From an uncultured Victivallales bacterium (GTDB lineage Bacteria; Verrucomicrobiota; Lentisphaeria; Victivallales; UBA1829), in contig CALXRI010000006.1 of the NCBI GenBank assembly GCA_944390795.1, positions 64,558 to 128,557 on the forward strand: DNA of 64,000 bases, read 5' to 3'. How positions within the stretch are numbered: position 1 is the first letter of the stretch; each line of letters begins with the position of its first letter. Positions 18,884 to 37,371 of the stretch are shown here, in pieces. A program made the translations under genes and the position numbers. The notes beneath the pieces are model-generated. The model was not told the DNA's origin. It saw only the letters and a program-made list of their open reading frames with translations, and searched no databases.

Positions 18884-18929
18884 GTATGGCATCGTGCAGT
18901 TATCATATCAACCCGGGAGGATTTTTGAA

Positions 18930-19181: not shown

Positions 19182-19205
19182 GACTCGCAGCCGGGGAACA
19201 TCAGA

Positions 19206-19457
19206 ATGAGAACAGTTGTCAGAAAACACGCCGTGATGATGGAGTATGTCATTATTGCCGTTCTGATTGCCGCGGCAGTTGTCGTCGCCGTCATTATGTT
19301 CGGAAAGAATGTCTCCCATGAAATGAACGTGGCGACAAAGGCCATGAGCGACGCCAAGGGCGCGGAAAACTATCAGGGCGAACTCAAGAAAAACGCGGCC
19401 GAGGACGTCAAGAAAGCCAACGAACACGAAAAGGCCATGCACAATTACGACAAGTGA
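19206..19457 (+). CDS. flp: Flp-type pilin subunit 2
   Basis: 83 residues, same length as its upstream neighbour and nearly identical through the leader boundary and helix (KHAVMMEYVIIAVLIAA) and the last 13 residues. The two differ mainly in the middle of the polar tail. It arose by tandem duplication. One copy could be the major subunit and the other minor, or they could mix in one filament; the sequence does not tell. A terminator follows, so the two pilins may be made in excess over the downstream assembly genes. Confidence 0.85.
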   Translation: MRTVVRKHAVMMEYVIIAVLIAAAVVVAVIMFGKNVSHEMNVATKAMSDAKGAENYQGELKKNAAEDVKKANEHEKAMHNYDK

Positions 19458-19481
19458 ATCATGTCCCGGCTGAAAACTTGA

Positions 19482-19516
19482 AACGGATGCTCGTCTGGCG
19501 GGGATCCGTTTTTTTT
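19482..19516 (+). terminator. Intrinsic terminator after the pilin pair
   Basis: AACGGAT (19482-19488) pairs with ATCCGTT (19504-19510) and runs into eight T. It lies between pilin 2 and the peptidase gene, so partial read-through would set a high ratio of pilin to assembly proteins. Confidence 0.8.
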
Positions 19517-19537
19517 ATGATATGAAATGGAGTGCGG

Positions 19538-20086
19538 ATGGATTACCTGACTCTCGGAAAACTCATTCTCGCCACGCCGTGGCTGATTTATCTGTCGATC
19601 CGCGACTTCCGCACCCACGAACTGCCGAACGCATGGGTGTTCGGCGGCGTACTTGTGATGTTTGCCGTGGCGCTTGGCGTCGGAATGCCTTATGCGCTGG
19701 CGTCTCTGCTGACGGCGTTTTTTTCCTCGCTTTTCCTGCTGCTTCCTTTTTTCCTCCGGGCGGCGGGCGCAGGCGATGTGAAAATGCTGTTTGCCGCCGG
19801 ACTGATCGCGGGTCCCGGGAACACGCTGAACCTGATTCTGCTGGTCTCGCTGGCGGGGCTCGTGCTTGCCGTGCTGATGCTGGCCTTCCGGAAGGTGAAC
19901 GCCGCGAGAGTGAAGCACTACTGCCGCTGTCTGTTTGATTTCCGCTATGACCGGAAGAAAGGAAGGGAAACCTTGCCGCCTCCCGATGCGGAAAGCTGCC
20001 GTGTGCCGTTCGGCGCGGCGATTGCGGCGGGACTTTTTCTGAATCTTCTGATGCAGCTGGTCTATTCTCTGGAGGGGGCCGGATGA
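19538..20086 (+). CDS. Prepilin peptidase, A24 family (TadV/CpaA type)
   Basis: 182 residues with about five membrane segments. The two catalytic aspartates of the aspartic prepilin peptidase family are visible: one in 'SIRDFRTHELPN' near residue 21 and one in 'GAGDVKML' near residue 80. It lacks the N-methylase domain, as usual for the short Tad-type enzymes. It should remove the leader of Flp pilins and TadE/TadG-like pseudopilins at the inner membrane. Start: ATG at 19538 with an ATGGAG site; a GTG two codons earlier is also possible. It overlaps the next gene by ATGA. Confidence 0.88.
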   Translation: MDYLTLGKLILATPWLIYLSIRDFRTHELPNAWVFGGVLVMFAVALGVGMPYALASLLTAFFSSLFLLLPFFLRAAGAGDVKMLFAAGLIAGPGNTLNLILLVSLAGLVLAVLMLAFRKVNAARVKHYCRCLFDFRYDRKKGRETLPPPDAESCRVPFGAAIAAGLFLNLLMQLVYSLEGAG

Positions 20087-20763
20087 GGCGGAAAAAAGAA
20101 ACTTTTCTGAAATCCCGGAAAGGAGCTGCTCTTCTGGAGTTCGTCTTCTGCTTTCCGATTCTGTTCGTTCTGTTTCTGTTTGCCGTCCAGTTCGCATACA
20201 TCATGATTACCTGGCAGGTCGTGCACTACTCCGCATACATGGGGGCGCGTTCGGCCATGACGGTCAACAATCTCCAGAGGAAAAGCCGCGCGGAAACCGT
20301 GGCGAAACGGATTCTTGCGGTCGTGTCCGGCTCCCCGGCGGATTCGAAGGAAGCAAAGGACCGCGCCGACGATAAATACATCCGGCTTGACGGCTGGGGC
20401 AGACTCCCGAATACGAAATACCTGGATCAGCAGGTCGAAGTGGACATTCCCATGATCGACATCGACCCGCGCGGACTCAAATGCACGGTCAAGTTCAAGA
20501 TGTTCCTGCTGGTTCCGGTCGCCGGGCGGATCATCAGCTTCTTCGCAAAGGACAAAAAGAGCGAAGAGGAAAAGAAGTGGGAAAAAAAGCTCGACGAGCA
20601 GTCCTATGCGCTCAATCCCGCGCTGCTGGCTCAATACGCCAATGAACTGGAGGTAAAGGGCGCCGACAAGAAAGAGAAGCTCAAGTATCCGTATATCACG
20701 CTTTCCTCCACCAGTGTGATTGCCATTCCCTATGCGACAAAATTCTATCCGGTGGCGAAATGA
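20083..20763 (+). CDS. tadE: TadE-like pseudopilin
   Basis: 226 residues. The N-terminus 'KSRKGAALLEFVFCFPILFVLF' has the pseudopilin cut site (glycine, then AALLEF with E at +5), followed by the membrane helix. Its motif positions match TadE. The rest is a periplasmic domain with a highly charged stretch (KDKKSEEEKKWEKK) near residue 150. TadE pseudopilins are needed for Tad pilus assembly. It overlaps the genes on both sides by four bases, so translation is coupled within one operon. Confidence 0.82.
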   Translation: MRRKKETFLKSRKGAALLEFVFCFPILFVLFLFAVQFAYIMITWQVVHYSAYMGARSAMTVNNLQRKSRAETVAKRILAVVSGSPADSKEAKDRADDKYIRLDGWGRLPNTKYLDQQVEVDIPMIDIDPRGLKCTVKFKMFLLVPVAGRIISFFAKDKKSEEEKKWEKKLDEQSYALNPALLAQYANELEVKGADKKEKLKYPYITLSSTSVIAIPYATKFYPVAK

Positions 20764-22469
20764 ATCAGACTTATCCGACCGTCTTCACCGTATTTTCGGG
20801 AAAGTGCCGCGAGCTGGCTTCCGACAGCAGAGGCGCGGCGCTTGCGATAACGCTTGCCTTCGTCATGCCGATCTATCTTCTGGTGATCGGGATCTACGGA
20901 ATCGGGGAAGTGGTGCGCAGCAAGATCGAGCTCCAGAACGCGGCGGACGCGGCCGCCTATTCCGCCTCGGTGGTGCAGGCGGACTATCTCAGCCGGATCG
21001 CGACTGTCAACAAAGCAATGGCATGGACGTATGTGGATCTTCAGAAGCGCTCCCTCGATCTGGCGATGGATGTCTTCTGCAAATACGTTTTCATCCAGTT
21101 CCAGAAGGATCTGAACATGGCGCGTCAGAACAACACCCCGTGCCACATGCATGTTCCAGGTCTGCATTACAACTGCGGAACGGATGTACTGGTCGATTCC
21201 ACGGCACTGGAGATTCTGGGCACCGGCCTGGGGATACCGGAACTGGCCAGAAAATTTAACGGACAGAATGCTCTTGACCGCTTCCTGCTGGCGCAGCTGG
21301 TGTATACGACAGAGGCGGAATTCAAGGGAAAAGGGTCTATTGCGAACACACCGAAAGTTTACGAATACAGTTATGCCATTACGAAAATGATGGCGAAACT
21401 CAACTCCCTGCGCAAGGAGTTTCCGGACAAAGTCCGGCAGACCGCGCAGCAGGTCGCCGCAGCCAACATGATGGAGTGCAGGGACGATTACATGATCAAT
21501 GTCACGCTCGGCGACATGACCGGCGCGTTTCTCACGATGCTGCCCACCGAGGAGAATGAAAAAACGTTCATTTCCTTTGCGGATCCCACGCTGAAGGATT
21601 TTTCCCCGAAGAAGGTGTTCGGCCCCGGAACCGACGACTGGATCGTAAGGAAGGGAATTGCAGGTTTCTGGCGCGTTTACAAACAGACGAAAACTCATCT
21701 CTACGCGGAATGGGACTGGTTCTGGACACGCTGGGTGCATGTCAATCTGGAAATCATCCAGCTGCATCTTCCGCCGATATTTGGAGGCGCTTCCAAACGG
21801 GGGCATCCGAAATACCACGGGTATGACAGCTTCTTCCCGATGATCAAGAAAGATCTGCCGATCGGTCTCCTGGTGCCGCCGGCGATTCCGCTTACGCTGA
21901 CGCCGCTGTTCTTCGGCAAGGCGGGTTCGATCACGGTTGCGATCGCGCGCAAAACGAGCAATCCGTTTTCCGTTTTCAGCTGGAGCGGGCGTTCCCTGAC
22001 GGCGCCGTCGATTCTCTCCGCGTTCAATCCAAGCGTTGCGGGAGGGAACCGTCCGGAATACATGTGCGCCATCGCCTCCGCCCGCGCCGGATACAAGCCC
22101 TATGACAAGGACAAGGAGAAAAAGCGCAAGAGCGCCGACTACAATCTCGGCTACACCCTCTCCAGCGGAGAGAAGGAATGGAATCTGGTGGAAACCGACT
22201 GGGACGGCGTAATGCTTCCCGTGAAGAACGCCTGGGATCTCTGCGCAGGCGTGGGAGAGGCGCAGGCCTTCACCGTCGGAAGCGGCAACATTCTCAAGGA
22301 GATCATGCTCGACAAAAAGAACTGGGTCGACGCGAAGGGAAAGAAGATCGACGAAAAGAAACTGCCCGACTGGGAGAAGCTCAAACCGCCCGCCGGACTT
22401 GTCACGGACAAAGGCGACAAGGACGGCAAACTGCAATGGGATAAACTCCGGGATTATCTGGGACACTGA
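20760..22469 (+). CDS. tadG: TadG-like pilus assembly protein
   Basis: 569 residues. N-terminal membrane anchor 'RGAALAITLAFVMPIYLLVIGIYGI' followed by 'KIELQNAADAAAYSAS', the typical start of TadG/TadE-related proteins, in which the anchor is followed by the 'qnAaDAAAlaaA' helix. The long remainder is periplasmic and not recognisable in detail; no von Willebrand MIDAS motif is obvious. It probably helps anchor or assemble the Tad pilus in the envelope. It overlaps TadE by ATGA. Confidence 0.75.
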   Translation: MNQTYPTVFTVFSGKCRELASDSRGAALAITLAFVMPIYLLVIGIYGIGEVVRSKIELQNAADAAAYSASVVQADYLSRIATVNKAMAWTYVDLQKRSLDLAMDVFCKYVFIQFQKDLNMARQNNTPCHMHVPGLHYNCGTDVLVDSTALEILGTGLGIPELARKFNGQNALDRFLLAQLVYTTEAEFKGKGSIANTPKVYEYSYAITKMMAKLNSLRKEFPDKVRQTAQQVAAANMMECRDDYMINVTLGDMTGAFLTMLPTEENEKTFISFADPTLKDFSPKKVFGPGTDDWIVRKGIAGFWRVYKQTKTHLYAEWDWFWTRWVHVNLEIIQLHLPPIFGGASKRGHPKYHGYDSFFPMIKKDLPIGLLVPPAIPLTLTPLFFGKAGSITVAIARKTSNPFSVFSWSGRSLTAPSILSAFNPSVAGGNRPEYMCAIASARAGYKPYDKDKEKKRKSADYNLGYTLSSGEKEWNLVETDWDGVMLPVKNAWDLCAGVGEAQAFTVGSGNILKEIMLDKKNWVDAKGKKIDEKKLPDWEKLKPPAGLVTDKGDKDGKLQWDKLRDYLGH

Positions 22470-22472
22470 AAC

Positions 22473-23162
22473 ATGAGAAAAATATTCGACAATCTGTTCC
22501 GTTCCCGCCGCGGCTCCGTGCTGATGGAGTTCGTGCTGGTGCTGCCCGTCTATATGGCGACGATCGGCGGCATTCTGTGGCTCGGCATGAAATCCCTTGA
22601 CGCGATCAATCTCAGGTCGGCGGATCACTGGGGCGTCTGGATGGCGGGCAACCGTTTCTCCGTGCGGACACCGGCGCTTATGGCCCTGCAGGAGATGTTT
22701 CCGCGCACATCGCTCATCACGACCAGCCAGAAGCGGGCGCTGAATGCCGAACGTTCCTACCTCCAGTTCATCGGTTCCAAAACCACGCTCTACGAGACGC
22801 GCCCAGGTTTCCTCGACAACTGGATCAACATGCCATATACGGTCTCCGGAGAGGACAAGCCCTTTTCCATTCCGGAGTTCCAGATCACCTCCTCGCGCTA
22901 CGGGAACAAATACACGCAGTGCATCATCATGCGTTCCAAGGGATCCGACACGGCGAAACGGCACTGGGATCCCAGTCTTGTCGCCAAAAACAAGGTCTGG
23001 CAGTTCGATTCCAAGGACGACGAATATCCGAAGGAGTGGAAGCTTGAACTGCTGGATGACCCGAAATATACCGACGATACGAAAGAGCAGGAAAAAGAGC
23101 CGGAAAAGATCAAATTCTATGAGCGTTTCGGCAAGTATGAACAGTGGAGCAAGGCGAAGTGA
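22473..23162 (+). CDS. Second TadE-like pseudopilin
   Basis: 229 residues. Leader and cut site 'FRSRRGSVLMEFVLVLPVYMATIGG' (glycine, then SVLMEF, E at +5) mark a TadE/TadF-type pseudopilin with one membrane helix. The periplasmic part is polar and its C-terminal 40 residues are rich in lysine and glutamate. Together with the TadE at 20083 it gives two minor pseudopilins, as Tad loci usually have. It is 3 bases after TadG and overlaps the next gene (GTGA). Confidence 0.8.
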   Translation: MRKIFDNLFRSRRGSVLMEFVLVLPVYMATIGGILWLGMKSLDAINLRSADHWGVWMAGNRFSVRTPALMALQEMFPRTSLITTSQKRALNAERSYLQFIGSKTTLYETRPGFLDNWINMPYTVSGEDKPFSIPEFQITSSRYGNKYTQCIIMRSKGSDTAKRHWDPSLVAKNKVWQFDSKDDEYPKEWKLELLDDPKYTDDTKEQEKEPEKIKFYERFGKYEQWSKAK

Positions 23163-23620
23163 AAACGTTCCCGCTTTCGACAGCCGTTTTTCTCCTGGTG
23201 TTTCTTGGCGGGCTGGGGATGATTCTGCTGCTGCATGCGCCCGCCCGGGAAGAAAGGAGCGCGGCGTCATCGCCCGTTTCCGGCGTTCCGGCGGACGCTC
23301 CGCGCGGACTTCCGGCGCTTGTCCTGCCGCCGGGGATCACGGCACGGCCCTGCCCGGAAGACAGCTGGGAGTATACCGGCGAGATCCATTCGAATTTTGT
23401 TTCCGCACGCGGGCGCCTGAGTTCCTGGTTCCAGAAATCCTCCTGGCGTCCGGAAAAACGGATCACGCTGGATGCCAGTTTGAAACCGCAGGTGATTCTG
23501 ACATTTTCCAACCGTGAGTATGAACTGACCCTGCTGCTCTGGAAGATTAAAACCGATCTGACCGGCTTTTCCTATCGAAGGGACAGAAAACCGGACTGGA
23601 AGGGGGAAATCATCCAATGA
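23159..23620 (+). CDS. Single-span membrane protein of unknown role in the Tad operon
   Basis: 153 residues from a GTG at 23159 that overlaps the stop of the pseudopilin gene (GTGA) and has a GGAGCAAGG site; an ATG at 23144 is the alternative. One N-terminal membrane segment (residues 6-24, 'TAVFLLVFLGGLGMILLL'), then a proline- and arginine-rich linker and a small soluble domain of about 90 residues outside the membrane. No known family is apparent. Its place between pseudopilin and kinase genes suggests an envelope role in pilus assembly or sensing. Confidence 0.7.
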   Translation: MKTFPLSTAVFLLVFLGGLGMILLLHAPAREERSAASSPVSGVPADAPRGLPALVLPPGITARPCPEDSWEYTGEIHSNFVSARGRLSSWFQKSSWRPEKRITLDASLKPQVILTFSNREYELTLLLWKIKTDLTGFSYRRDRKPDWKGEIIQ

Positions 23621-24492
23621 CTGCCGGAATCCCCGTGAAAAAAGAAGCCGCGGAGCATCTTCCGTTCTTTTTTGCAGGGGAACGGATTGCCTCTTTTCAG
23701 CTGGTCCGGTGTCTGCGCGTCCGGCCTCTTTCCGAATGCTGGCTTGCAGTGAGACTGGATACGGGGCTTTCCGCCGCAGTCAAGTTCCTCCGGAAGGAGC
23801 ACCCGCGGATCCCGCAGTTTTACGACACGGCGGAATTTCTGCGGACCTGCACGAATCCCTTCCTGATCCGGGTGTTCGAGTATGGGGAAACCGCGCAGGA
23901 CATGCCTTACGCGGTGATGGAATACGCCGACGGGGGATCCCTTCGAAAGCGTCTGACCAAAGGCGGCGCGCTTCCGCTTCCCGACGGGGTTGCCCTTCTG
24001 CGCGGAACGCTTCTTGCGCTGCGGGAGCTGCATGAACACGGCATTGTTCACCGGGATGTCAAACCGGACAACATCTGGTATCTGTCCGACGGGACTTTCC
24101 GCCTGGGCGACCTCGGCACGGCAAAGCTGCCCGGTTTCGCGGAAGAGCCCGGCGCAGTGTTCGGCACAGCCTCTTACCTGTCGCCGGAACAGGCGCGCGA
24201 TTCGACCGCCGTCGATGCGCGGAGCGATCTCTACAGCCTTGCACTGGTGCTCTTTGAAGCCCTGACGGGAAAACGGCGCCGTCCGAGGATTGACAATTTC
24301 GCCGAAGCGCTCAGGAATGTTCTGGCTGACCATTCGGCGCCTCCTGTTGAAGAGATGCGCCCCTTTGCAACCGGGAAGCTGGCATCCCTGCTGGGGCGGA
24401 TGATGGAATATTCTCCTGCACTGCGCCCGTCAGATGCCGCCCATGCGCTTGCGGAACTGGACACAATGGAACTGCCGGCCGGAAATTCCTGA
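23617..24492 (+). CDS. Serine/threonine protein kinase (PknB/Hanks type)
   Basis: 291 residues, kinase domain only with no membrane span. Visible subdomains: ATP-binding lysine in 'AAVKFLRKE' near residue 53, catalytic loop 'HRDVKPDN' near 144-151, metal loop DLG (usual DFG) near 164, 'GTASYLSPEQA' activation/P+1 loop, and 'DARSDLYSLALVLFEALTG'. All catalytic residues are present, so it should be active in the cytosol. It ends the forward Tad operon, overlapping its neighbour by ATGA. The opposite operon encodes four FHA domains, which bind phosphothreonine. The inferred role is phospho-control of pilus assembly or motor activity. No PP2C phosphatase is seen nearby. Confidence 0.9.
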   Translation: MTAGIPVKKEAAEHLPFFFAGERIASFQLVRCLRVRPLSECWLAVRLDTGLSAAVKFLRKEHPRIPQFYDTAEFLRTCTNPFLIRVFEYGETAQDMPYAVMEYADGGSLRKRLTKGGALPLPDGVALLRGTLLALRELHEHGIVHRDVKPDNIWYLSDGTFRLGDLGTAKLPGFAEEPGAVFGTASYLSPEQARDSTAVDARSDLYSLALVLFEALTGKRRRPRIDNFAEALRNVLADHSAPPVEEMRPFATGKLASLLGRMMEYSPALRPSDAAHALAELDTMELPAGNS

Positions 24493-24496
24493 ATCT

Positions 24497-24532
24497 CCCG
24501 GCCGTGCGCCGGGAACACTCCTTCAGTTCCCT
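24497..24532. terminator. Hairpins between the convergent Tad operons
   Basis: Only 30 bases separate the two stop codons. CCCGGC (24497-24502) pairs with GCCGGG (24508-24513), and GGGAAC (24511-24516) can pair with GTTCCC (24526-24531). Neither has a T-run, so termination by these alone is uncertain. Confidence 0.35.
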
Positions 24533-25392
24533 TCCGGAAGACGGAATTTTTCCAGAAGCATCTTCCAGCGGGCGGAAGTCTCTTTTTTCGCCATGATCTC
24601 TCCGGGCGCAAGGGCGGCGATTTCAAAAATTTCCCGGTCGGACAGCCGCAGCAGGAGGGGAAGCGCGGCAAATCCCGCTTTGCGCAGATGCTTCGCCGCC
24701 CGGGCGAGCCGGCGCCGCAGAGCGAATTCCCGCAGAACGACGGCAGCGGGAAGAAGAAGCGGAAGAAACCACCATGAGACTCCGATGACGGCAAGGACGG
24801 GAGCTGCCGCAAGTCCGCCGGAAAACAGGGCGGGCAGCTCCCATCGCCGAAACAGGTTTCCGGCCATGCGCCGGAATGCGGACGCGTTCACCTGGCAGGC
24901 GAAATATTCCTCGTAGACGGAGGAGGGAAATGCCGTTCTTGCCGCGTGAACCATCTCATGTGCAAGAGTTTCCGAGGCGTCATAGCCCATTCGTTCCTCC
25001 CTGTCGGCAAAGGCGCCATGCAGAAAGACGAGAGGGAGCAGACGGTCGATTTCCAGCAGGATTCCGGCGGAAAGAAAACCAGTCTGTTTCGAGGAACAGC
25101 GCACGGGAACCCAGTCCGCGCGGAAACGATAGGTTTCCCAGGTCAGGGCGGCGGATTTCCGGTATACTGCCGGAAGAGGGAAAGGCGTCCGGCCGATCAG
25201 TTTCCGGAGATCGGAAGCGCCGTTCCGAAGAGCTTCCAGTTCTTCGTCCAGTTTTTTCAGACGTCCGGCAAACTGCTCCGCCGTTTCGCCTGGAACCGGA
25301 AACAATCCGGCGGAATCGAATTCCGCCAGCAGCGCGGAGAGCTCGCCGGGCGGATATTCGCGGAGTTTTTTCCAGGAGGACGGCGTTGTCAT
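24523..25392 (-). CDS. HExxH-motif membrane protein, putative metallopeptidase
   Basis: 289 residues from the ATG at 25392. Near residue 145 lies 'SETLAHEMVHAARTAF', an HExxH zinc-peptidase signature in a proper helix context, with 'EEYFACQVNASAF' about 20 residues on, which supplies a possible third ligand glutamate. Two adjacent hydrophobic segments follow near 185-220 ('APVLAVIGVSWWFLPLLLPAAVVL'; two spans), then a basic cytosol-like tail. This recalls M48-like membrane peptidases but I cannot fix the family. It is the last gene of the reverse Tad operon, so it may process pilus proteins. Confidence 0.65.
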   Translation of the reverse strand: MTTPSSWKKLREYPPGELSALLAEFDSAGLFPVPGETAEQFAGRLKKLDEELEALRNGASDLRKLIGRTPFPLPAVYRKSAALTWETYRFRADWVPVRCSSKQTGFLSAGILLEIDRLLPLVFLHGAFADREERMGYDASETLAHEMVHAARTAFPSSVYEEYFACQVNASAFRRMAGNLFRRWELPALFSGGLAAAPVLAVIGVSWWFLPLLLPAAVVLREFALRRRLARAAKHLRKAGFAALPLLLRLSDREIFEIAALAPGEIMAKKETSARWKMLLEKFRLPEGN

Positions 25393-25393
25393 A

Positions 25394-25603
25394 TCATGGA
25401 ATCGGCAGGGATATGACGGTGATGATCCGCTGATAGAGAGCGACGATGCCTTTCCCGATCGGCCCGAATGAACCTCCTCCGAATCCGGAGAGCGAATAGA
25501 TGGATGCCGAAGCGGCAAAAACCAGCGGCAGAATTGAACAGAGCAGGATCGTGTATTCCAGTAAAACACTCCGTTTCCGCACAATGTTCCGTTTCCCCGT
25601 CAT
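25394..25603 (-). CDS. Small pilin-like membrane protein
   Basis: 69 residues. Basic leader MTGKRNIVRKR, then SVLLEYTILLCSILPLVFAA: the E/Y pair sits at +5/+6 exactly as in the two Flp pilins at the other end of the locus, and a hydrophobic helix follows. The tail has a glycine-rich stretch (GFGGGSFGPIG). It may be a third, divergent Flp-type prepilin or a minor subunit. It overlaps the upstream FHA gene by ATGA and ends one base before the metallopeptidase-like gene starts. Confidence 0.65.
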   Translation of the reverse strand: MTGKRNIVRKRSVLLEYTILLCSILPLVFAASASIYSLSGFGGGSFGPIGKGIVALYQRIITVISLPIP

Positions 25604-27957
25604 TTCTGACTCCAGACCCAGTTGACCACGGGGTCGCCCGGAATGCCGTTTGCCAGAATGGACTCCCCGATCTTTCCGGCTGTCTGCGCCTTCAGCGGGT
25701 CGTATCCTTCCAGAAACATCTGCTGTTTTGCCCGGAATGCCTTCCATGCCGTGGCGTAGCGGCGCATCGCTTCGCGAGAGATTGTCGAGGCCGGGGAGAA
25801 GTAGAAAAACGCCGCTTTCGCTGCGAAATAGGTGCGAGTGCCGGGTGCTTCCTCCGCTATTTTGTCGAGGGTGGAAAGCATGGCGGCGCGGCACTGAAGC
25901 AGAGTTTCACAGCGGCGCTTGAGCGTCTTCGTGGCTCCGTTCAGCATCCACTGATTCTCGGGAAGCGCCAGCCAGAGATCGGTCTCCTCCACCGCGCGGT
26001 AAAGTGCGGCGAGCGCGATGCAGTCCGGCTGGAAATCCAGTCCCGAAATGAGATCGGTGGAATAAAGGTTAGTCGGCTGGAGAGAGGACTGCAGAATGAT
26101 TTCGTAGAAAAAGCGGATGCCGAACATCCGGTCATAAATCCCGGACGGCGCTTTTCTGCGGGGATTGGGCATTTTCTCTTTCAGACAGTCGAAACGGAAC
26201 GCTTCCTCCAGAGTTTTCCGGGAATTGAAACGCTCCACGATTTCCGGGGTCCCGCCTTTTTTGTCCAGTCCGTTGTTTTTAAGCTTTGCAAGCAGGTATT
26301 TCAGATTTTCCATCTTGCGCAGGAGCGCCGCCTGGCGTTCGGCAAGCTGATTGCGCTTTTTCAGGATCCGGGAGCTGATGATGCATTCGTCGGGGGATAC
26401 GAACGGCACATCGCGTATGATGGCATCGAAACGCATGGCGGTCACCGCGGTCTGGTTGGCCGCGACGTCATTCTGGTTTCTCCCCAGACGTTTCAGGATG
26501 TCGGCGAGATCCTGCGCCCGGACACGGACGCTTCCGGAAGCCGCCGTTCCCAGGCGTTTCAGCTCTGCCGCAAGAGCCTTGAAATCCGTATCTTCCGTAT
26601 TCAGACGATCCAGCGCGGCCGTCATTTTATCCAGAATCGCGCAGTTGTTTTTCAGTTCCGCCAGCAGATTGTCGATTTCCCCGCGGAGAGGGAGAAGCCA
26701 TTCCGGTTCCAGCTCTTTTTTCCGCTTGAGAAGGGGATCTTTCTCCAGTTCCGCCAGCAGATTCTTCTGAGTTGCCGGATCGGAATCCATCGAAGAAAGG
26801 ATGTCACGCAGTTTGAACTGCACGTCCAGCAGGGATTTTGCATGGTGCACCAGCGCCATGCGTTCATCCACGGAGGCGTCCTCCCAGTTCCAGGCGAAAC
26901 GGTTGCCCGCCTCCATGCGGCCGAAACACTTTGCGGCATCCTGCCATTCGGAATCCTTCAGAAGACGTTTGAATTCATTCCATGCGGCAAGCGTCTTTCC
27001 GTAGCGCGCAATGTTTTTCAGATGCTCCTGATGATATTTCTCATATTTCTGAAAATTCCGCGATCCGGGCATGCGGTCAAGCAAGCGCCGGGCCGCGGCG
27101 AAGTCCGCGCGGCGGATGTAGTATTCCGTGGCGGCCAGAACCTGGGAGGCCTCGGGTGTTGCGGCGTAGAAAAGACCGAAGACGCAGAGAATGACGACCA
27201 CGGTAATTCCCATGATCAGAAATTTGCGCCCGAGCTGCGAACGGGTGTGCGGAACATTGCGGTCGAGAAACATGAGATCGAAAAAGGCCACGGAGATTTC
27301 ATCGGAATCCATCAGCATGCGTTCCTGGCGCCCCAGTTTCGCGCCGTTGACAAAGGTGCCGTTCAGACTGGAAAGGTCCCGGATCCAGGACTCCCCGTTT
27401 TCCGCGATGCGGATTTCCGCATGGAAACGCGAAACGACATCATCCCTTATGACAATGTCGTTTTCCGGCGCGGATCCGATCCTGATGAGATTTTTTTCAA
27501 GGCGTACGAGTTCTCCACCGCGCGGTCCGTTCAGAAATTCCAGACGGTGCACGTCACAGGGCCGGGAATCACGCAGTTCCGCAGGCTTGACGAACAGCTC
27601 GCAGTCGCCGACGGCGACCCGGTCATTCGGTTTCAGAACATATGAGGACAGTGTTCTGCCATGGACATGCAGAATGTTTTTCCCGCAGGCCTGGATCCGG
27701 ATTTCCCGCGGAAGAAGGCGCAGTTCCGCCTGATAATCGGAGGATACGCGGTCCTGTTCCGGGACGATCCAGTCATTGTCCGCGGCACGCCCGATCTTCA
27801 CGATTTCACCAAGTGCGTCGGTTTTTACCGAAACAATCAGACGCCCCCGGCAGCGGAGTTCCAGGATGCGCACATAGGTGCGTTTCCGCTCTTTCTCTCC
27901 GGAGGATTGTTCCGCACCGTCTTTCCTCTTGTCATGTTTTCGAAACAGTTTTCTCAT
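25600..27957 (-). CDS. Large protein with two FHA domains and one membrane span
   Basis: 785 residues. FHA domain 1 at about 54-115 ('VKIGRAADNDWIV', degenerate SxxH) and FHA domain 2 at about 158-230 with all hallmarks ('IRIGSAPENDIVI', 'VVSRFHAEI', 'SLNGTFVNGAKL'). A membrane span follows at 246-264, then about 500 mainly helical, lysine/leucine-rich residues that probably lie in the periplasm. FHA domains bind phosphothreonine, so the cytosolic head could read marks made by the kinase at 23617, and the outer part could touch the pilus machine. The function of the large domain is unknown. ATGA overlaps at both ends show tight coupling. Confidence 0.8.
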   Translation of the reverse strand: MRKLFRKHDKRKDGAEQSSGEKERKRTYVRILELRCRGRLIVSVKTDALGEIVKIGRAADNDWIVPEQDRVSSDYQAELRLLPREIRIQACGKNILHVHGRTLSSYVLKPNDRVAVGDCELFVKPAELRDSRPCDVHRLEFLNGPRGGELVRLEKNLIRIGSAPENDIVIRDDVVSRFHAEIRIAENGESWIRDLSSLNGTFVNGAKLGRQERMLMDSDEISVAFFDLMFLDRNVPHTRSQLGRKFLIMGITVVVILCVFGLFYAATPEASQVLAATEYYIRRADFAAARRLLDRMPGSRNFQKYEKYHQEHLKNIARYGKTLAAWNEFKRLLKDSEWQDAAKCFGRMEAGNRFAWNWEDASVDERMALVHHAKSLLDVQFKLRDILSSMDSDPATQKNLLAELEKDPLLKRKKELEPEWLLPLRGEIDNLLAELKNNCAILDKMTAALDRLNTEDTDFKALAAELKRLGTAASGSVRVRAQDLADILKRLGRNQNDVAANQTAVTAMRFDAIIRDVPFVSPDECIISSRILKKRNQLAERQAALLRKMENLKYLLAKLKNNGLDKKGGTPEIVERFNSRKTLEEAFRFDCLKEKMPNPRRKAPSGIYDRMFGIRFFYEIILQSSLQPTNLYSTDLISGLDFQPDCIALAALYRAVEETDLWLALPENQWMLNGATKTLKRRCETLLQCRAAMLSTLDKIAEEAPGTRTYFAAKAAFFYFSPASTISREAMRRYATAWKAFRAKQQMFLEGYDPLKAQTAGKIGESILANGIPGDPVVNWVWSQK

Positions 27958-29435
27958 TCTTCAATCGTCCAGATGTTTTTCATGATCTTCACATGTCTGT
28001 GATCGTCCGGTGACGGAAAGCGCCGCAGGCATTCGCTGACAATCCGATTCATGCCCTCGGTATTCTCAGCCGTCTGATAGGTCTGATATGCCAGACAGCA
28101 TTGCGAGTACCATACCTGCTGCTTCTCCTTGAATTCCAGCCAGAGAGGCAGCACCGCGGCGGTCAGCACCTCGTCGCGGCTTTCATACGCGCGGCAGAGC
28201 AGCGTCCTCAGCATTGCATCCAGTTCGTCCCAGACGGCGATAGCGATATTTTTCCGCAGTTCCTGCGAAGCCCGCTGGAGCAGACGCGTCGAGTCCCCCT
28301 CCATTTGTTTTTCCGGGATCTCCCAGTAACGGTCCGCCATCGCCGGGGAGACGACGAACGCGCCGAACCTCTGCAGAACCCGGTCGGACCGCCAGAAATG
28401 GCCGACCGGAACCTCCCGCAGCAGAACGAGCTCCTTGTCGTGATAGCGCATGTAGCTGGCGTATCCCTGCCAGCGGAAATTTTTGTCCTGCCTGCTGTAG
28501 GAGAGGCGGTAATACGGGAAGCCGCCTTCCGCAGGCCGGTAAAAATCCTGTTTCGGGTCCTCGAGAAATGCAAAGCCCTGCTGTTCGGAAACCCGTTTCC
28601 GCCAGTTGTCAAAGCTTTTCCTGCGCGTCGTCCGGAATCCGTCCGGCACGGTGCTTACCGTGAATACGATGTGGAACGGCACATCGAAGTTTTTGCCGAG
28701 CGCGGTCATGATCTCGCAGTTGTTTCCATCGCTTTTCACCACCGTTGCGGACATTTTCGGGAAATAGACAAGGCATTTCCCGCCAGGGGCAATTTCCGTC
28801 CGGACCTCTCCGTCGTTGTAGTTCCCGGAAACCTCGCCCGGCCATGTGACCGGATTTTCCAGCCGGAGTTCGGAAAGGATGTAGGAGCCTCCCAGAATCA
28901 GAATGAATATCAGAATCCCTGCCACGATGACAATCTGTTTCCGGCGTTTCTGGCTGCGGTTGAATTTCCGCAGATCGTCAAGTTCCGCCGCGGAGGCATA
29001 GCGTGTGCTGTCTCCTTCCGGAGGACGATTCTCCTCCGTACCCTCCCCGGTCAGTTCCTCGGTGGGCTCCTCGGTGTCTCCGCTGCCGGAAGCGGCGGCG
29101 GAAACGGGCGGCGGCGAGTCGTCGCTTTCAAGCATGAAGGTGAGTTCCTTTCCGATCCGGACGTCCGCCCCCGGAAGCAGCCGGCGGTCCTCTCCTCCCG
29201 GAACCTCCTCGCCGTTCACCAGCGCGGATGCGTTCTCAAACACATGCAGCAGAACGCCGGTGTCAGACTGCGGCATCAGCGTGACATGTTCCGGCGCGAT
29301 GTCCGTTCCGCCGGGGCGGATGTCCGCATCGCGGCTCCGTCCGATCACGGTTCCGGAATTCAGAATTGCAAATGTGCGTCCGGCTAATTCGCCGGAGAGA
29401 AACTTTATTTTGTAACTGGATGACGCTTTTTCCAT
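27954..29435 (-). CDS. FHA-domain protein with one membrane span
   Basis: 493 residues. A divergent FHA domain at about 20-105 ('TVIGRSRDADIRP', 'DIAPEHVTL', 'ALVNGEEV'), an acidic proline/glutamate linker (110-145), a membrane span at about 166-190 (VIVAGILIFILILGGSYIL), then about 300 residues that should be periplasmic. Same overall plan as its downstream neighbour, with which it overlaps by four bases. Probably a phosphothreonine-responsive regulator or structural partner of the Tad machine; the C-terminal domain is not recognised. Confidence 0.75.
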   Translation of the reverse strand: MEKASSSYKIKFLSGELAGRTFAILNSGTVIGRSRDADIRPGGTDIAPEHVTLMPQSDTGVLLHVFENASALVNGEEVPGGEDRRLLPGADVRIGKELTFMLESDDSPPPVSAAASGSGDTEEPTEELTGEGTEENRPPEGDSTRYASAAELDDLRKFNRSQKRRKQIVIVAGILIFILILGGSYILSELRLENPVTWPGEVSGNYNDGEVRTEIAPGGKCLVYFPKMSATVVKSDGNNCEIMTALGKNFDVPFHIVFTVSTVPDGFRTTRRKSFDNWRKRVSEQQGFAFLEDPKQDFYRPAEGGFPYYRLSYSRQDKNFRWQGYASYMRYHDKELVLLREVPVGHFWRSDRVLQRFGAFVVSPAMADRYWEIPEKQMEGDSTRLLQRASQELRKNIAIAVWDELDAMLRTLLCRAYESRDEVLTAAVLPLWLEFKEKQQVWYSQCCLAYQTYQTAENTEGMNRIVSECLRRFPSPDDHRHVKIMKNIWTIEE

Positions 29436-29445
29436 GAACTCCTCC

Positions 29446-30342
29446 TCAGAACAGCGGCACGCCGGCTTCCTTCATCTTCAGGAAAACCGGTGTCAGAATG
29501 ATGATGAAAACGGCGGGCAGAATGAACAGAGCCATCGGAAGAAGCATCAGCGAAGGAGCACGCTGGGCTTTGCATTCGGCAAGCGCGAAACGGACTTTGC
29601 GCATTTCCTCGCCCTGAATCTCCATCGTTTCCGTCAGCGGCGCGCCCAGTTCGGTTCCCAGTGCGATCGCGGCGGCGAACGAGGTGAATTCCTTGATCTG
29701 AATCCGGTCCGCCATGTTCTGCAGCGCGACGGTCCGGATCACGCCGAGTTCCATCTCCCGAAGCATCTGGGAGTATTCGTCCGTCAGCGGTCCCGAAATC
29801 CCGAGCTTGACATAAAAGCGGATCGCCGCGGAAAAATCCAGGCCGCCACGCATGGCCGAGGCGATCAGATCAATGGAATAGGGGATCGCCTTCAGGATTT
29901 CCATCCGGCGCTTCTGCGCAAGGTTGCCGATCATGACGCCAGGCATGCTGCCGCCGACGAAAGCGGCGATCAGAGCGGCGATCGGAATGGAAATGCGGTT
30001 CTCCCGGTCCACCAGCAGGGCCGTGACGAATCCGGCCGCCAGCGCAAGAGCGCCTCCAAGAACCAGCTGGGTGCAGTAGACTGCTCCCGGAGTGAGTTTC
30101 AAGCCCGCAAAAGTCAGCTTCTTCTGCAGTGCGGACGCATGTCCCCGGAAGGCGATCCGGAACAAAGTCCCTATGCCTGCGCTTTCAAGGATATCCGCCA
30201 GAGGTTTGACCATACGGAAGAGCAGCGGGGTGTTTTCCGGCTTTTCCGCTTTCCTTTCCCGCTTCTCACCCAGAACGACGAAAAAAAGCGTCGGAAGCAG
30301 AACCGCCATGAAAGTCAGTGCATAAATAAAAATCTGTTTCAT
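29446..30342 (-). CDS. tadC: TadC inner-membrane platform protein
   Basis: 298 residues from the ATG at 30342. Four or five hydrophobic segments flank a cytosolic GspF/T2SSF-type domain ('AIPYSIDLIASAMRGGLDFSAAIRFY', with the PxxxDLIAxAxxGG core). TadC pairs with TadB to form the inner-membrane platform on which the CpaF/TadA ATPase acts. It lies 4 bases downstream of TadB. The upstream extension beyond 30342 is in TadB coding sequence and not needed. Confidence 0.85.
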   Translation of the reverse strand: MKQIFIYALTFMAVLLPTLFFVVLGEKRERKAEKPENTPLLFRMVKPLADILESAGIGTLFRIAFRGHASALQKKLTFAGLKLTPGAVYCTQLVLGGALALAAGFVTALLVDRENRISIPIAALIAAFVGGSMPGVMIGNLAQKRRMEILKAIPYSIDLIASAMRGGLDFSAAIRFYVKLGISGPLTDEYSQMLREMELGVIRTVALQNMADRIQIKEFTSFAAAIALGTELGAPLTETMEIQGEEMRKVRFALAECKAQRAPSLMLLPMALFILPAVFIIILTPVFLKMKEAGVPLF

Positions 30343-30346
30343 TGCG

Positions 30347-31246
30347 TTATACCTTGATGTCCACAATCGCCCGAATTGCAAAATAACCGATCACTTCCAA
30401 TGTCAGCATCACACCGATGGCACACCATCCGATCAGAGTCTGCACCATCGGCAGCATCAGCTCATTGTTGATGAAGAAAAGCAGCAGGAATGCCGCAAGA
30501 GGCGCCAGCGACATCGCCAGCGCTTCAAAGCGCCCCTGTGCGGTCAGCGCCCGGAGTTTCTGCTGGAATTCCGTTCTTCCCCGGATCATCCATGTGATTT
30601 TTTCCAGAACGTCGACCATGCTTCCGCCTGACTGCGTCGTCAGACGGATTGAAATGATAAGCAGCTGGAGATCCTCGCAGGGAATCCGGTTGTACATGCG
30701 CTGGAGCGCCTCCGCCAGTTCCAGCCCGAGGCGGTATTCCCGGATCACGATCATCAATTCCTCCTTCAGCGGACCCTCGCAGCGCCGGGAGAACACTTCC
30801 AGCGCCTGCGGCAGCGCCTGCCCCGCGCGCAGTCCGCTTGTCAGCCCGAGCGCAAGGTCCAGGATGCTGTTTTCAAAACGCTCCGCGCGCCTGCGCACCT
30901 TGGCGGAGAAATAAAACCAGGGAGCCGCCATGCCCAGAGCGAAAACAAGCGCGCCCGCCGGCACGATGATCAGCGGTTCGTAAATCTGGCAGAACACAAG
31001 CGTCGCAACCAGAACGCCGGACAGCAGAACTCCTGCGGAAAGCTGAATCTGCTGCAATGTGGTGCGGTCGATGAAATAGTAGACATTGTTCGCCATTCCT
31101 TCGGAACGATTCTCCTTGATCCTGCGGTCGGTCTGTTCCAGGCTGAACGACTGGATCAGGGAGATGAGAATGTAAATCAGAAGGGCGACGGCAAAGAGCA
31201 CCAGAAGATAGACTCCATAGCGTTCCAGAACCGATACTGAATTCAT
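30347..31246 (-). CDS. tadB: TadB inner-membrane platform protein
   Basis: 299 residues. N-terminal membrane span (residues 11-27), a central hydrophobic pair, and the T2SSF-type domain 'FENSILDLALGLTSGLRAGQALPQAL' typical of TadB, followed by two C-terminal spans. It forms the platform complex with TadC and is driven by the CpaF/TadA motor encoded just upstream, after a 13-base gap. Confidence 0.87.
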   Translation of the reverse strand: MNSVSVLERYGVYLLVLFAVALLIYILISLIQSFSLEQTDRRIKENRSEGMANNVYYFIDRTTLQQIQLSAGVLLSGVLVATLVFCQIYEPLIIVPAGALVFALGMAAPWFYFSAKVRRRAERFENSILDLALGLTSGLRAGQALPQALEVFSRRCEGPLKEELMIVIREYRLGLELAEALQRMYNRIPCEDLQLLIISIRLTTQSGGSMVDVLEKITWMIRGRTEFQQKLRALTAQGRFEALAMSLAPLAAFLLLFFINNELMLPMVQTLIGWCAIGVMLTLEVIGYFAIRAIVDIKV

Positions 31247-31259
31247 TCCATGCTCCTTT

Positions 31260-32951
31260 CTAGCCTTCTGGCACGAAGACGGACATGTCCAGCTCCAGAT
31301 CGCCGGCCTGGCGCAGTTCGTCGATGAATTTCGGGATGTTGCCCGTGGGCGTATGGCGCCCGATCACGTGGAACTTCTCGTCAAACCCCTCCTGTTCGAA
31401 CGTGAAGATGTCCTGCAGAAGAATCGTGCTGCCCTCCCGTCCGGTCACTTCGGAGATTTTGACAATCTTCCTGGAACCGTCCGGAAGCCGGGTCTGCTGA
31501 ACGATCAGGTGAATCGCCGATGCGATCTGTTCCCGGATTGCCGAAGAGGGCAGTTCAAATCCCGCCATCATGACCATGTTCTCCAGACGGGACAGCGCGT
31601 CGCGCGGATTGTTCGCATGACAGGTTGTCATGGAACCGTCATGCCCGGTGTTCATCGCCTGAAGCATGTCAAGCGCCTCAGCGCCGCGGCATTCCCCGAC
31701 AATGATCCGGTCCGGGCGCATGCGCAGCGTGTTGATGACCAGGTCGCGGATTGTGATGCGCCCCTGTCCCTCGACGTTGGCCGGACGAGCCTCCAGACGG
31801 CAGAGATTTTCATGACTCAGTTTCAGTTCCGCCGAATCCTCCACCGTGATGATGCGCTCCTTCTCCGGAATGAACTGCGAGAGAATGTTCAGAAGCGTTG
31901 TTTTGCCGGATCCGGTTCCCCCGGAAACCAGAATGTTGCGCCGCGCACGCACCGCCTCCCGGAGAAAGAGCGCCATCGGACGGGTCAGGCTTCCATATCC
32001 GATCAGGTCTTCGTCCGTGAGTTTTCTGGACGGGAATTTGCGGATTGTCACCAGGGAGCCGTCGAGCGCCAGCGGGGGGATGACCGCATTGACGCGCGAC
32101 CCGTCCTCCAGGCGGGCGTCCACCATCGGAGACGCCGCGTCAATGTGACGGCCCAGAGGCTCCACGATGCGCTGAATGATGGACTGCAGATGGGTTTCCC
32201 CGTTGAATTTCGCTGCGGAACGGTAAAGCAGCCCCCTGCTTTCCACAAAGATGTTTTCCGGGCCGTTGATCATGATTTCCGAGATGTTCGTGTCGCGCAG
32301 GAGCGGCGACAGCGGCCCGAGCCCGATCAGGTCGTCAAGCAGAATTCTCCGGAACTGCTCCAGATTGACGTCCGCAGGAATCTCATGGCGGATTTCGCGC
32401 AGAATCCGCTCAACAGTCTCCTCCACTCGCGGACGCATTTCGCTGCTGGTCATCTCCTTCGAATTGCCGATATTCAGAAGCTCAAGGACGCGGGTCTGCA
32501 CCTGTCTCGCAAGGCGGATCATCACATCACTGTAAAGGGCGACCAGGGAGGTCTGTGCGGCATAGACCGGCAGTTTGTGCTCCTGAGCGTCCGTTTTTTC
32601 CGGCGTCGAAGCGGTCGGTCCGGACGGGCGCGGCGGCGCGGACGGCGCTGGCGCGGATTCGCTTTTTTCCAGAATCAGCTCCGTTTCGCCGATCTGGATT
32701 GTGTCGCCGGGAGCAAGCCCGGTCCGGCCGGAGATGGGTTTCCCGTTTACGCGTGTTCCGGTCCGGCTTGCCAGATCTTCGATGAACAGATTGCCGTCGT
32801 TCGCGGTGATTTCCGCGTGGCGGCGGGACACTTTCCTATCCGCAACGCAGAGCCCCGCGCCATCGGAGCGCCCGATCGTCATCGGGCATTTGCCCTCCAG
32901 TGAGACGGTTTGCTCTTTCCCGTCAGCGGCTTTGATTTTCAGCAGCATCAT
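31260..32951 (-). CDS. cpaF: CpaF/TadA pilus motor ATPase fused to an N-terminal FHA domain
   Basis: 563 residues. Residues 20-95 are a well-formed FHA domain ('MTIGRSDGAGLCV', 'KVSRRHAEI', 'SRTGTRVNGKPI'). A proline/alanine linker follows (about 105-130), then the secretion ATPase: N-terminal helical region, Walker A 'GGTGSGKTTLL' near 343, an acidic Asp box, and 'MRPDRIIVGECRGAEALDMLQAMNTGHDGSMTTCHANN', of which the RPDRIIVGE Walker B and TCHANN His box are diagnostic. It powers assembly and possibly retraction of the Tad pilus at the inner membrane. The FHA fusion puts a phosphothreonine reader directly on the motor, in the same locus as a kinase. Confidence 0.9.
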   Translation of the reverse strand: MMLLKIKAADGKEQTVSLEGKCPMTIGRSDGAGLCVADRKVSRRHAEITANDGNLFIEDLASRTGTRVNGKPISGRTGLAPGDTIQIGETELILEKSESAPAPSAPPRPSGPTASTPEKTDAQEHKLPVYAAQTSLVALYSDVMIRLARQVQTRVLELLNIGNSKEMTSSEMRPRVEETVERILREIRHEIPADVNLEQFRRILLDDLIGLGPLSPLLRDTNISEIMINGPENIFVESRGLLYRSAAKFNGETHLQSIIQRIVEPLGRHIDAASPMVDARLEDGSRVNAVIPPLALDGSLVTIRKFPSRKLTDEDLIGYGSLTRPMALFLREAVRARRNILVSGGTGSGKTTLLNILSQFIPEKERIITVEDSAELKLSHENLCRLEARPANVEGQGRITIRDLVINTLRMRPDRIIVGECRGAEALDMLQAMNTGHDGSMTTCHANNPRDALSRLENMVMMAGFELPSSAIREQIASAIHLIVQQTRLPDGSRKIVKISEVTGREGSTILLQDIFTFEQEGFDEKFHVIGRHTPTGNIPKFIDELRQAGDLELDMSVFVPEG

Positions 32952-32960
32952 AAATCGTCT

Positions 32961-34553
32961 TCACCATGTGAACATTTTCAGGAACCAGTTCCGCTCTTCC
33001 CGGTCATGCGTTTTCCGGCTTTTATCCCGGACCGATTCGGAAATGGTTTTTTCCGCATCCGCCGTATCCGCGGAGGGAATGCTTGTCATCTGCACCTTGC
33101 GTTCCGCGATTGTGGGACATGCCAGAATCAGCAGAACCATCTCCTCCCCCTGTTTTTCCTCGGAGGCCATGAACCAGCTGACGACCGGAATATGGCGCAG
33201 AAACGCGTATCCGCCCGGTCCGCTCTCGGAGTAGGTCAGCTCCTTCTGTCCCGCGATGACGGCCGTCTTGTTGAGCGGACAGAAGATTTCCGCCGTGGTC
33301 TTTGTGGACCGCTGGAAATAATCCTCCTCCTGCTTGATGGGGGCAAGGCTTTTTTCCAGATCGAATTCCAGTCGGACCATATCGGCCCGGACCAGTCCGC
33401 CGCGGACCTTCATCTTCAGCCCGAAATTGATCGGCTGCAGATTTGCCGCATCCTGGCTGTAAACTTTGACATTCAAGGTCCCGCCGTTTTCATATACGGC
33501 ATAATTCTTACTGTTGTTTGTGAGCGTAAGATGACCCGCGTCCCGGAAATCGGAGATGCCGTTATTGCCGAAGAACACGAGCGAGCCCTTCAGATCGGTA
33601 TTGAACTGGGAATAAAGACCTTTCCCGTCCGTCGGCCCCGTAAGTCCTTCCGGTGCGCCTCCGGCCAGCGCCCGGAACCAGGCGATCAGATTCCAGGAGA
33701 GAACCGTTCCGTCGGCGGACGAGTTGCCGAGACGCTCCAGCTGCGTTCTTGTCACGCCGACGAACACGACACCCACATCCAGCTGAGTATCCGCAATGTT
33801 CAGTTCCGTCACAACCTTCAGGGCGTCTCCGTTCCATTCCGGGGAAAGCCATGTCTGGGCGGCGAGAATCCGTTTGACCGCGGCAATGTCATTTTCGCAG
33901 AGCAGATAGCCGGAAACCGTCAGAAGGCCGTTCGACACCTCGAATTTGAGCTGTCCGGGCGTATCCGGGGAAATCGTGTCGGCAACCTTGAATCCGGCGT
34001 TTTCCAGACGCTTTTTCAGATCCGTGAAGAGCGCCGGCCCCGGCCGGAAGGTCACATAGTTGTGACAGCGGTCCTCATAACGCTTCACAACCCGCCGGAA
34101 ATATTCCCAGTGTCCCGGCCTTGTGATTTCTCCGCGCAGAGTCAGAACATTGTCGGAAAGTTCGATTCCGACTTCCGGCAGATCGCCCAGTTCCCGGCTC
34201 AGTTCACGGTAAACCTGCATGACGGAGCTGGACACAGTTACGCGGAATTCCTTTTTCATCCCGTTTGCCGAGGCTGTCACCACGGCGTTTCCGACCGAGA
34301 CTCCCTCCAGTTCGAAGGAGCGTCCCTCAATCCGGCCGACCCTGACATTGTCCGTGCTTGATTTGCAGTGCCCAATCTGGAAGGGAACCTCGAATTTCCG
34401 GGATTCTCCGGTGGAGATGGTGACACTTTCCGGGGGAAGACTCACTCCCGTCCCATTCCATTGGAGAGAGGCGCCTTCCGCCGCGGGTTCGGCGCCCGGC
34501 AACGGGAGAAGGATCCATGCAAGCAGGACCGACAGGCAGAAAAAAATTCTCAT
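32961..34553 (-). CDS. cpaC: Secretin of the Tad pilus (RcpA/CpaC type)
   Basis: 530 residues with a signal peptide (MRIFFCLSVLLAWILLPLPG, then AEPAAEG). The N-terminal part is the pilus/BON-like domain of CpaC ('GESRKFEVPFQIGHC', 'VGRIEGRSFELEGVSVGNAVVTA'), and the C-terminal half is the secretin ring region with 'VGVVFVGVTRTQLERLG' and the closing 'PGGYAFLRHIPVVSWFM'. It should form the outer-membrane channel for the pilus. It lies between CpaB and the motor ATPase, the usual order. No lipid anchor is visible. Confidence 0.87.
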   Translation of the reverse strand: MRIFFCLSVLLAWILLPLPGAEPAAEGASLQWNGTGVSLPPESVTISTGESRKFEVPFQIGHCKSSTDNVRVGRIEGRSFELEGVSVGNAVVTASANGMKKEFRVTVSSSVMQVYRELSRELGDLPEVGIELSDNVLTLRGEITRPGHWEYFRRVVKRYEDRCHNYVTFRPGPALFTDLKKRLENAGFKVADTISPDTPGQLKFEVSNGLLTVSGYLLCENDIAAVKRILAAQTWLSPEWNGDALKVVTELNIADTQLDVGVVFVGVTRTQLERLGNSSADGTVLSWNLIAWFRALAGGAPEGLTGPTDGKGLYSQFNTDLKGSLVFFGNNGISDFRDAGHLTLTNNSKNYAVYENGGTLNVKVYSQDAANLQPINFGLKMKVRGGLVRADMVRLEFDLEKSLAPIKQEEDYFQRSTKTTAEIFCPLNKTAVIAGQKELTYSESGPGGYAFLRHIPVVSWFMASEEKQGEEMVLLILACPTIAERKVQMTSIPSADTADAEKTISESVRDKSRKTHDREERNWFLKMFTW

Positions 34554-34565
34554 ATTCCTGATTCC

Positions 34566-35366
34566 TTATCTATGATCTTTATTGGGCACTTCGGGCAGTT
34601 CCGCCGGGACAAGGCCTTTGCGGATTTTCGCGAAGGTGTCGGCGTTGACGACTCCGCTGTCCTTCCTGTTCAGGGCCGCCGAATCGTTCCGTTTCCGCAG
34701 AACCGGATAAAGTTCGGATTCCCGCTGGGCCGCAATCAGGATCATGGCCTGCTGCGGCGGAAGAGAAACGAAAATCGTTCCGCTGGAACTGCCGCCTTCC
34801 CGGAAGGAGCCCTGTTCATTGGCAATGCCGATCACACGCACGCACGGCAGAAGGACGGAAGTTTCCCGCGACTCGGTCATCTTCACGCCGGAACCGTCGC
34901 CTGCCGTCATGTTTTTATCGACGGTGACGCCAGGAGATACATAGGTGGAAATGATGGCGATCTCGTCGTCGGGCATCAGCATCTTGACGAGGGCAGGATC
35001 TGAGAAAGTCACGGGAACGGTCCATTCCCCCTGCCGGGCGCAGTCGCTGAGCGTCGTCTGAATGCGTATGTCGGTCATCAGAATGTAATCGTCCTGGGAA
35101 ACCGCATGCGGCAGCTGCTGTCCGTATGCCAGACTCACATTTTCCCAGAGGAGCGCGTTTTTCGGAACCGCAGACTGCGGGATGTCCTTGTAGGTGAGCG
35201 ATCCCTGCGTCAGTTCGTCATGGGCATCCAGCGCCCGGGCCGCGACGACAACCGAAACCTTGTTTTCCGTGTCGTTTTCCTCTTTTTCAAACAGCAGTTT
35301 GCTGACGATGTAAACCGCCGCCAGTCCCAGAACAACCGATACCACCAGGGGAATAATATTTTTCAT
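34566..35366 (-). CDS. cpaB: Flp pilus assembly protein CpaB/RcpC
   Basis: 266 residues from the ATG at 35366, which begins a single N-terminal membrane anchor (KNIIPLVVSVVLGLAAVYIV). Then comes a SAF-type beta-clip domain ('SVVVAARALDAHDELTQGSL', 'VPVTFSDPALVKMLMPDDEIAI') that is characteristic of CpaB. It works in the periplasm, linking secretin and inner-membrane platform. It is the first gene of the reverse Tad operon; a promoter lies about 55-80 bases upstream. Confidence 0.87.
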   Translation of the reverse strand: MKNIIPLVVSVVLGLAAVYIVSKLLFEKEENDTENKVSVVVAARALDAHDELTQGSLTYKDIPQSAVPKNALLWENVSLAYGQQLPHAVSQDDYILMTDIRIQTTLSDCARQGEWTVPVTFSDPALVKMLMPDDEIAIISTYVSPGVTVDKNMTAGDGSGVKMTESRETSVLLPCVRVIGIANEQGSFREGGSSSGTIFVSLPPQQAMILIAAQRESELYPVLRKRNDSAALNRKDSGVVNADTFAKIRKGLVPAELPEVPNKDHR

Positions 35367-35419
35367 CTCTTGCGCCTCATCAGTGAAAAATTGCATGCCT
35401 CCAAACTTCCGGACACCTT

Positions 35420-37370: not shown

Positions 37371-37371
37371 G

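Follow-up and report, generated by a model that had tools for sequence, protein, structure and literature searches.

The window, by which we mean the whole 64,000-nucleotide stretch of DNA from an uncultured gut bacterium of the Victivallales that was analysed, contains a complete Tad (type IVc) pilus locus that carries a Ser/Thr kinase together with three proteins that have four FHA domains between them. Dozens of loci share the gene order and the domains, which excludes chance as an explanation of this arrangement of kinase and FHA genes. Because the FHA domain of the motor ATPase, CpaF, keeps the residues that grip phosphate and because sister gene clusters carry a phosphatase, phosphorylation probably switches the motor. 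An earlier, sequence-only reading of this DNA had proposed phospho-control both of the pilus motor and of an envelope complex. Our analysis favors the first part of that proposal, on account of the conserved CpaF pocket and of the kinases and phosphatases linked to related loci, and disfavors the membrane FHA proteins as readers in the window's lineage, in which their pocket residues have been lost.

Layout of the Tad locus

The source genome comprises 3.44 Mb in 66 contigs, and its nearest named relatives are uncultured Victivallales (Lentisphaeria), with a CpaF at 91% identity. The locus consists of two convergent operons. The forward operon (18927–24492, plus strand) is headed by the gene for a Flp-type pilin (18927–19181; Pfam Flp_Fap, E=6e-4), which is followed by a tandem near-copy (19206–19457; E=0.002) whose product has a near-identical N-terminus; both matches lie below the Pfam cut-off, yet the two proteins are pilin-like and in place. 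Next are genes for the TadV prepilin peptidase, with a GTG start (19532–20086; Peptidase_A24, E=1e-12), the minor pilin TadE (20083–20763; TadE, E=9e-10), TadG (20760–22469; PF13400, E=4e-6), a second TadE/TadF-like protein (22473–23162; TadE, E=3e-4, just below the cut-off), a 158-residue protein of no assigned function, p158 (23144–23620), that is conserved in the type A loci described below, and, as the last gene, a soluble Ser/Thr kinase of 291 residues (23617–24492).

The reverse operon, which runs on the minus strand from 35396 down to 24523, encodes RcpC/CpaB (34566–35396; TIGR03177, 76.8 bits, over the cut-off), the secretin CpaC/RcpA (32961–34553; Secretin, E=7e-7), the CpaF/TadA motor ATPase with its N-terminal FHA domain (31260–32951; T2SSE, E=2e-62; FHA, E=2e-16), TadB (30347–31246; T2SSF, E=2e-13), TadC (29446–30381; T2SSF, E=6e-13), two FHA-containing membrane proteins of 493 residues (27954–29435) and 785 residues (25600–27957), and an HEMVH-containing membrane protein (24523–25392, from a presumed start codon). 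Of the components by which a Tad locus is recognized, the CpaF motor, the TadB/TadC platform, the secretin and RcpC/CpaB are present, as are Flp pilin, TadV peptidase and TadE/TadG. No Pfam match to the TadZ/CpaE localization ATPase was found among the genes of the two operons. The HEMVH protein, which is specific to type A loci, matched no Pfam or NCBIfam model; its motif is metalloprotease-like, and it is possibly a zinc protease. All four FHA domains scored over the Pfam cut-off, and the Pfam matches and structure models agree with the sequence-only reading in placing one of them on the motor ATPase and three on two single-span membrane proteins with large outer domains.

Some features of the surroundings should also be recorded. 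An RND-type efflux pair, consisting of a membrane fusion protein and a transporter (36258–40482), adjoins the Tad locus. In relatives a gene for a PilT-like ATPase separates p158 from the kinase (locus L023, 19314–20408); it is missing from the window, where the p158 and kinase genes meet in a single ATGA overlap (23617–23620), and PilT-like copies, 88% identical, lie on contigs C32 and C18 of the source genome. One close relative (L024) keeps the reverse operon and the HEMVH protein and has an unrelated gene in place of the kinase/pilin operon.

FHA pockets and a candidate phosphosite

For comparison we gathered 80 loci by CpaF similarity and an additional 40 from an even draw of 115 genomes of the phylum, 50 of which yielded a strong CpaF match. 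The relatives are mostly uncultured assemblies, and several flanks are short. The loci are of three types. Type A, that of the window, has a soluble kinase and the HEMVH protein; type B shares with type A the order RcpC–secretin–CpaF/FHA–TadB–TadC–FHA–FHA and has a membrane kinase or none; and type C has an FHA-CpaF and lacks the 785-residue protein. When the CpaF tree is built with the FHA portion left out, a branch with full support separates type C from the other loci.

Each FHA domain was aligned across the related loci and its pocket residues were scored. The domain of CpaF (32688–32879) is fused at the N-terminus via a linker, which fits the definition of a class III CpaF, and in the window it has the canonical Arg28, Ser42, His45, Thr66 and Asn69. 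Its Arg and Ser are jointly present in 61 of 61 type A and type B loci (window included) as compared to 7 of 34 type C loci. The domain of the 493-residue protein (29151–29351) keeps Arg33 and has Ala47 at the Ser position, where Ser is found in none of 17 relatives of the window's lineage and in 41 of 42 loci outside it. FHA1 of the 785-residue protein (27607–27801) has both Arg57 and Ser73 in the window, but position 73 is Ala or Gly in 16 of 17 relatives, and the His is replaced by Gln. FHA2 (27289–27486) has Ser162 instead of Arg, as do 16 of the 16 lineage relatives with letters at this position and most other loci. Thus, within the window's lineage only the FHA domain of the motor is a conserved canonical reader. 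The membrane FHA proteins have lost pocket sites that their cousins kept, except at FHA2, which is without Arg almost everywhere. Loss of the phosphate-binding Arg and Ser, which the sequence-only reading had named as evidence against itself, is largely seen, by alignment, for the 493- and 785-residue proteins and not for CpaF. Phospho-reading by all four FHA domains was rejected for the window's lineage on the basis of these residues. In type C loci (L121–L153 and L105) the Arg of the CpaF domain is mostly Ser, Ala or Gln, and it is missing from 27 of 34; these loci hold another family of FHA motors, one whose pocket is degraded.

The 493-residue protein is predicted to consist of its FHA domain, a 40-residue disordered linker (residues 107–147), a single membrane helix beginning at residue 149 and an outer domain of mixed alpha/beta structure, and the 785-residue protein of two FHA domains, one membrane helix and a long, all-helical outer domain. 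Neither outer domain had a solved-structure match among the top 50 matches listed. Just before the membrane helix of the 493-residue protein lies Thr144 (T144; codon at 29004–29006, minus strand), which is found in 40 of 40 sequences of one alignment (A2) and in 55 of the 58 with letters at this place in a larger set, within a linker whose other positions are poorly conserved; Thr125 is found in 36 of 40. Thr144 lies in the motif T-R-x-A-[ST]-x-x-E. Given that the helix starts at residue 149, [ST]-x-x-E may serve to cap it, but capping would leave Thr144 itself unexplained. In one locus (L037) the counterpart of the 493-residue protein is without its FHA domain and has Glu at the aligned place, and the motif was not found in the membrane FHA proteins of type C. 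Both T144 and the CpaF pocket are kept in types A and B, and T144 is the best candidate for a phosphosite read by the CpaF domain, albeit a tentative and somewhat doubtful one.

Kinases and phosphatases of the window and its relatives

The kinase of the window covers positions 13–257 of the 263 of the Pkinase profile (E=7e-32), has no predicted membrane span and is nearest by sequence, among solved structures, to PknB. Alignment of 16 kinases from type A loci shows the catalytic Lys, HRD, Asn and D(L/F)G (DLG in the window) to be invariant; none of the 16 has the glycine-rich loop, and about 10, as read by eye, retain the alphaC Glu. The enzyme had been described as a complete kinase ending the forward operon; it is indeed the last gene and retains its catalytic residues, but it is incomplete in respect of the glycine-rich loop. 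A dN/dS value of 0.23 relative to its nearest relative indicates purifying selection, and catalytic activity is plausible. No relatives of the kinase were found in viral contigs. The source genome contains 14 Pkinase matches, this kinase among them.

Linkage was counted in loci of 12 kb or more, with expected values taken from the gene density of the source genome alone; type C, however, shows the same kinase background as these values predict. A linked kinase is found in 15 of 16 type A loci (window not counted), which represent one event owing to the common origin of the type A loci. Among 44 type B loci, 16 carry linked kinases (22 genes, versus 3.3 expected) and 28 have no kinase nearby, some contigs being short; 10 of the 44 carry a PP2C phosphatase, versus 0.47 expected. 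No PP2C was found in type A or type C loci of at least 12 kb. The 34 type C loci contain 2 kinase genes, versus 2.6 expected, that is, no enrichment. The survey of Tad loci for co-occurrence of kinase and FHA-CpaF, as the sequence-only reading had proposed it, bears out the association for types A and B and not for type C. A general rule by which an FHA-CpaF entails a linked kinase was rejected because type C loci have the FHA-CpaF and kinases at background frequency. The contrast of types A and B with type C amounts to one split on the tree, and since type C is one clade a Fisher test of A plus B against C was not used as a probability. Kinase linkage requires 11 changes on the CpaF tree and occurs in several gene arrangements, although short contigs may account for some of the changes. 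On the whole, comparison across the 60 related type A and type B loci supports phospho-control.

Thr-Met motifs such as TEVTMVDAP and ERTMV recur in the N-terminal tails of the type B membrane kinases; these tails contain 32 Thr-Met pairs as compared to 5.8 in shuffled sequences (0 of 1000 shuffles), the repeats not being independent of each other. In three loci (L039, L042 and L045) the kinases, which are divergent from the Tad operon, have an N-terminal FHA domain of their own as well as repeated TMV motifs.

The absence of a phosphatase nearby, also remarked upon in the sequence-only reading, holds for the window, in which we found no PP2C, but it does not hold for the family or for a paralogue in the same genome. 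Contig C32 carries a paralogous type B run of Tad genes in the order TadG, TadF-like protein, membrane kinase (1068 residues), RcpC, secretin, FHA-CpaF, TadB, TadC, FHA protein (530 residues), FHA-FHA protein (792 residues), PP2C (274 residues), weakly kinase-like protein (325 residues) and PilT-like ATPase. Kinase and PP2C are hence located upstream and downstream, respectively, in one gene run. This PP2C is one of two PP2C_2 matches in the whole genome, the other being on contig C7. The same gene run is present in four relatives (L117–L120), and PP2C is found in the paralogue and in nine other type B loci. The kinase-like protein beside PilT in this gene run (L104, 2152–3129) has HGD for HRD and DFS for DFG and is possibly a pseudokinase.

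A putative phosphorylation switch and its alternatives

We propose, with about even confidence for and against, that the Tad pilus motor is switched by threonine phosphorylation. The kinase would phosphorylate a threonine within the inner-membrane assembly, T144 being the likeliest, and the FHA domain of CpaF would bind the phosphothreonine, such that the motor hexamer is docked or activated at the TadB/TadC platform. In the window's lineage the role of the FHA domains in the 493- and 785-residue proteins would be mostly structural, like that of the fold in the type III secretion protein YscD, and a phosphatase from elsewhere in the genome (C32 or C7) would reset the switch. Counting against the switch are the loop-less kinase with its partly conserved alphaC Glu, the lack of a type A phosphatase, the degraded pockets of two of the three FHA proteins in the lineage and the 28 type B loci without a kinase.

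Some of these observations would suit a different reading, in which all four FHA domains are structural protein–protein modules of the YscD/SctD kind that read no phosphate, and the kinase is a neighbor by descent or has another target. In three of the four domains Arg or Ser is missing or the site is degenerate, the domain of the 493-residue protein is closest in fold to YscD and weakly matches an SctD model, and type C keeps an FHA-CpaF that is mostly Arg-less and has no linked kinase. We nonetheless consider this reading unlikely, as the Arg and Ser of CpaF persist in every type A and type B locus while pockets decay elsewhere, and as linked kinases and PP2C occur much more often than the background predicts. 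Alternatively, the type A kinase could serve as an allosteric partner, being either a pseudokinase or weakly active, with the CpaF domain reading the marks of other kinases of the genome, which has 14 Pkinase matches. The uniform loss of the glycine-rich loop and the variable alphaC Glu are consistent with this, but a pseudokinase usually lacks one of Lys, HRD, Asn and D(L/F)G, all of which are invariant here, and we think it quite unlikely. Finally, the kinase/FHA set might mainly control a function other than pilus dynamics, such as a contact-triggered device with the pilus genes as scaffold, similar to Kil of Myxococcus, an FHA-rich, Tad-like killing apparatus (PMC8460266). The large outer domains of the two membrane proteins would be in keeping with such a device; with a full Tad pilin set in the locus (two Flp pilins, TadV and TadE/G/F), it is very improbable.

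The phosphorylation switch that we favor resembles that of type VI secretion, in which PpkA phosphorylates TssL at Thr14 and Fha binds the phosphorylated Thr14 (PMC3953482). As with PpkA, Fha and PppA, a kinase, an FHA reader and a PP2C (here in sister loci) lie within the locus of a secretion machine, and, as with TssL and Fha, the reader would dock on a phosphothreonine in the cytoplasmic portion of a protein of the inner membrane; here, however, the machine is a Tad pilus, and its motor ATPase itself has the reader fused to it. With the class III CpaF proteins (FHA-IDR-ATPase; PMC12019362) the motor shares an N-terminal FHA domain and a flexible linker. In the portion of that survey drawn on here, class III is mostly betaproteobacterial and its FHA domain is not tied to a kinase, whereas the present loci belong to the Lentisphaeria/Verrucomicrobiota group and are linked to a kinase and, in the sister loci, to PP2C as well. 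Kil of Myxococcus xanthus is alike, by its description, in having an FHA-fused CpaF (KilF) and several further FHA proteins; its authors propose a signaling cascade from the FHA domains, and the word kinase is absent from their main text (PMC8460266). The 493-residue protein has the architecture of YscD/SctD of type III secretion, with an FHA-like cytoplasmic domain, one membrane helix and an outer domain; YscD/SctD are the best fold matches of its FHA domain, and its score against the NCBIfam SctD model is 29.7 bits, below the cut-off of 86. The best fold matches of the 785-residue model are the FHA domains of OdhI/GarA, which are of the type of the FHA substrates of mycobacterial PknB; unlike PknB, to which it is nearest in sequence, the kinase of the window is soluble and has neither PASTA domains nor the glycine-rich loop. 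FHA-CpaF and FHA-rich Tad systems are, then, already known (PMC12019362, PMC8460266); in the open-licence literature that we searched, we found no kinase or phosphatase described together with FHA domains in a Tad locus beyond these two papers, and no report of a kinase/PP2C/FHA set in such a locus.

Viewed across the family, the loci might represent a Lentisphaeria Tad pilus with a self-contained threonine-phosphorylation switch, in which a kinase writes, the FHA domain fused to the motor reads a conserved threonine of a partner in the inner membrane and, in type B, a PP2C of the same operon erases. Type A would be a rewired form, its kinase soluble and loop-less and two of its readers retired, and the logic of type VI secretion would have been reinvented on a pilus motor; we hold this broader picture to be possible, with somewhat less than even confidence. 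FHA-fused Tad motors are known, but we know of no input to such motors. These loci supply candidates for three steps, namely a kinase, a reader and, in sister loci, a PP2C, together with one candidate site, T144, and type C, which shares the motor and has an FHA domain that is mostly degenerate and no linked kinase, provides a natural control.
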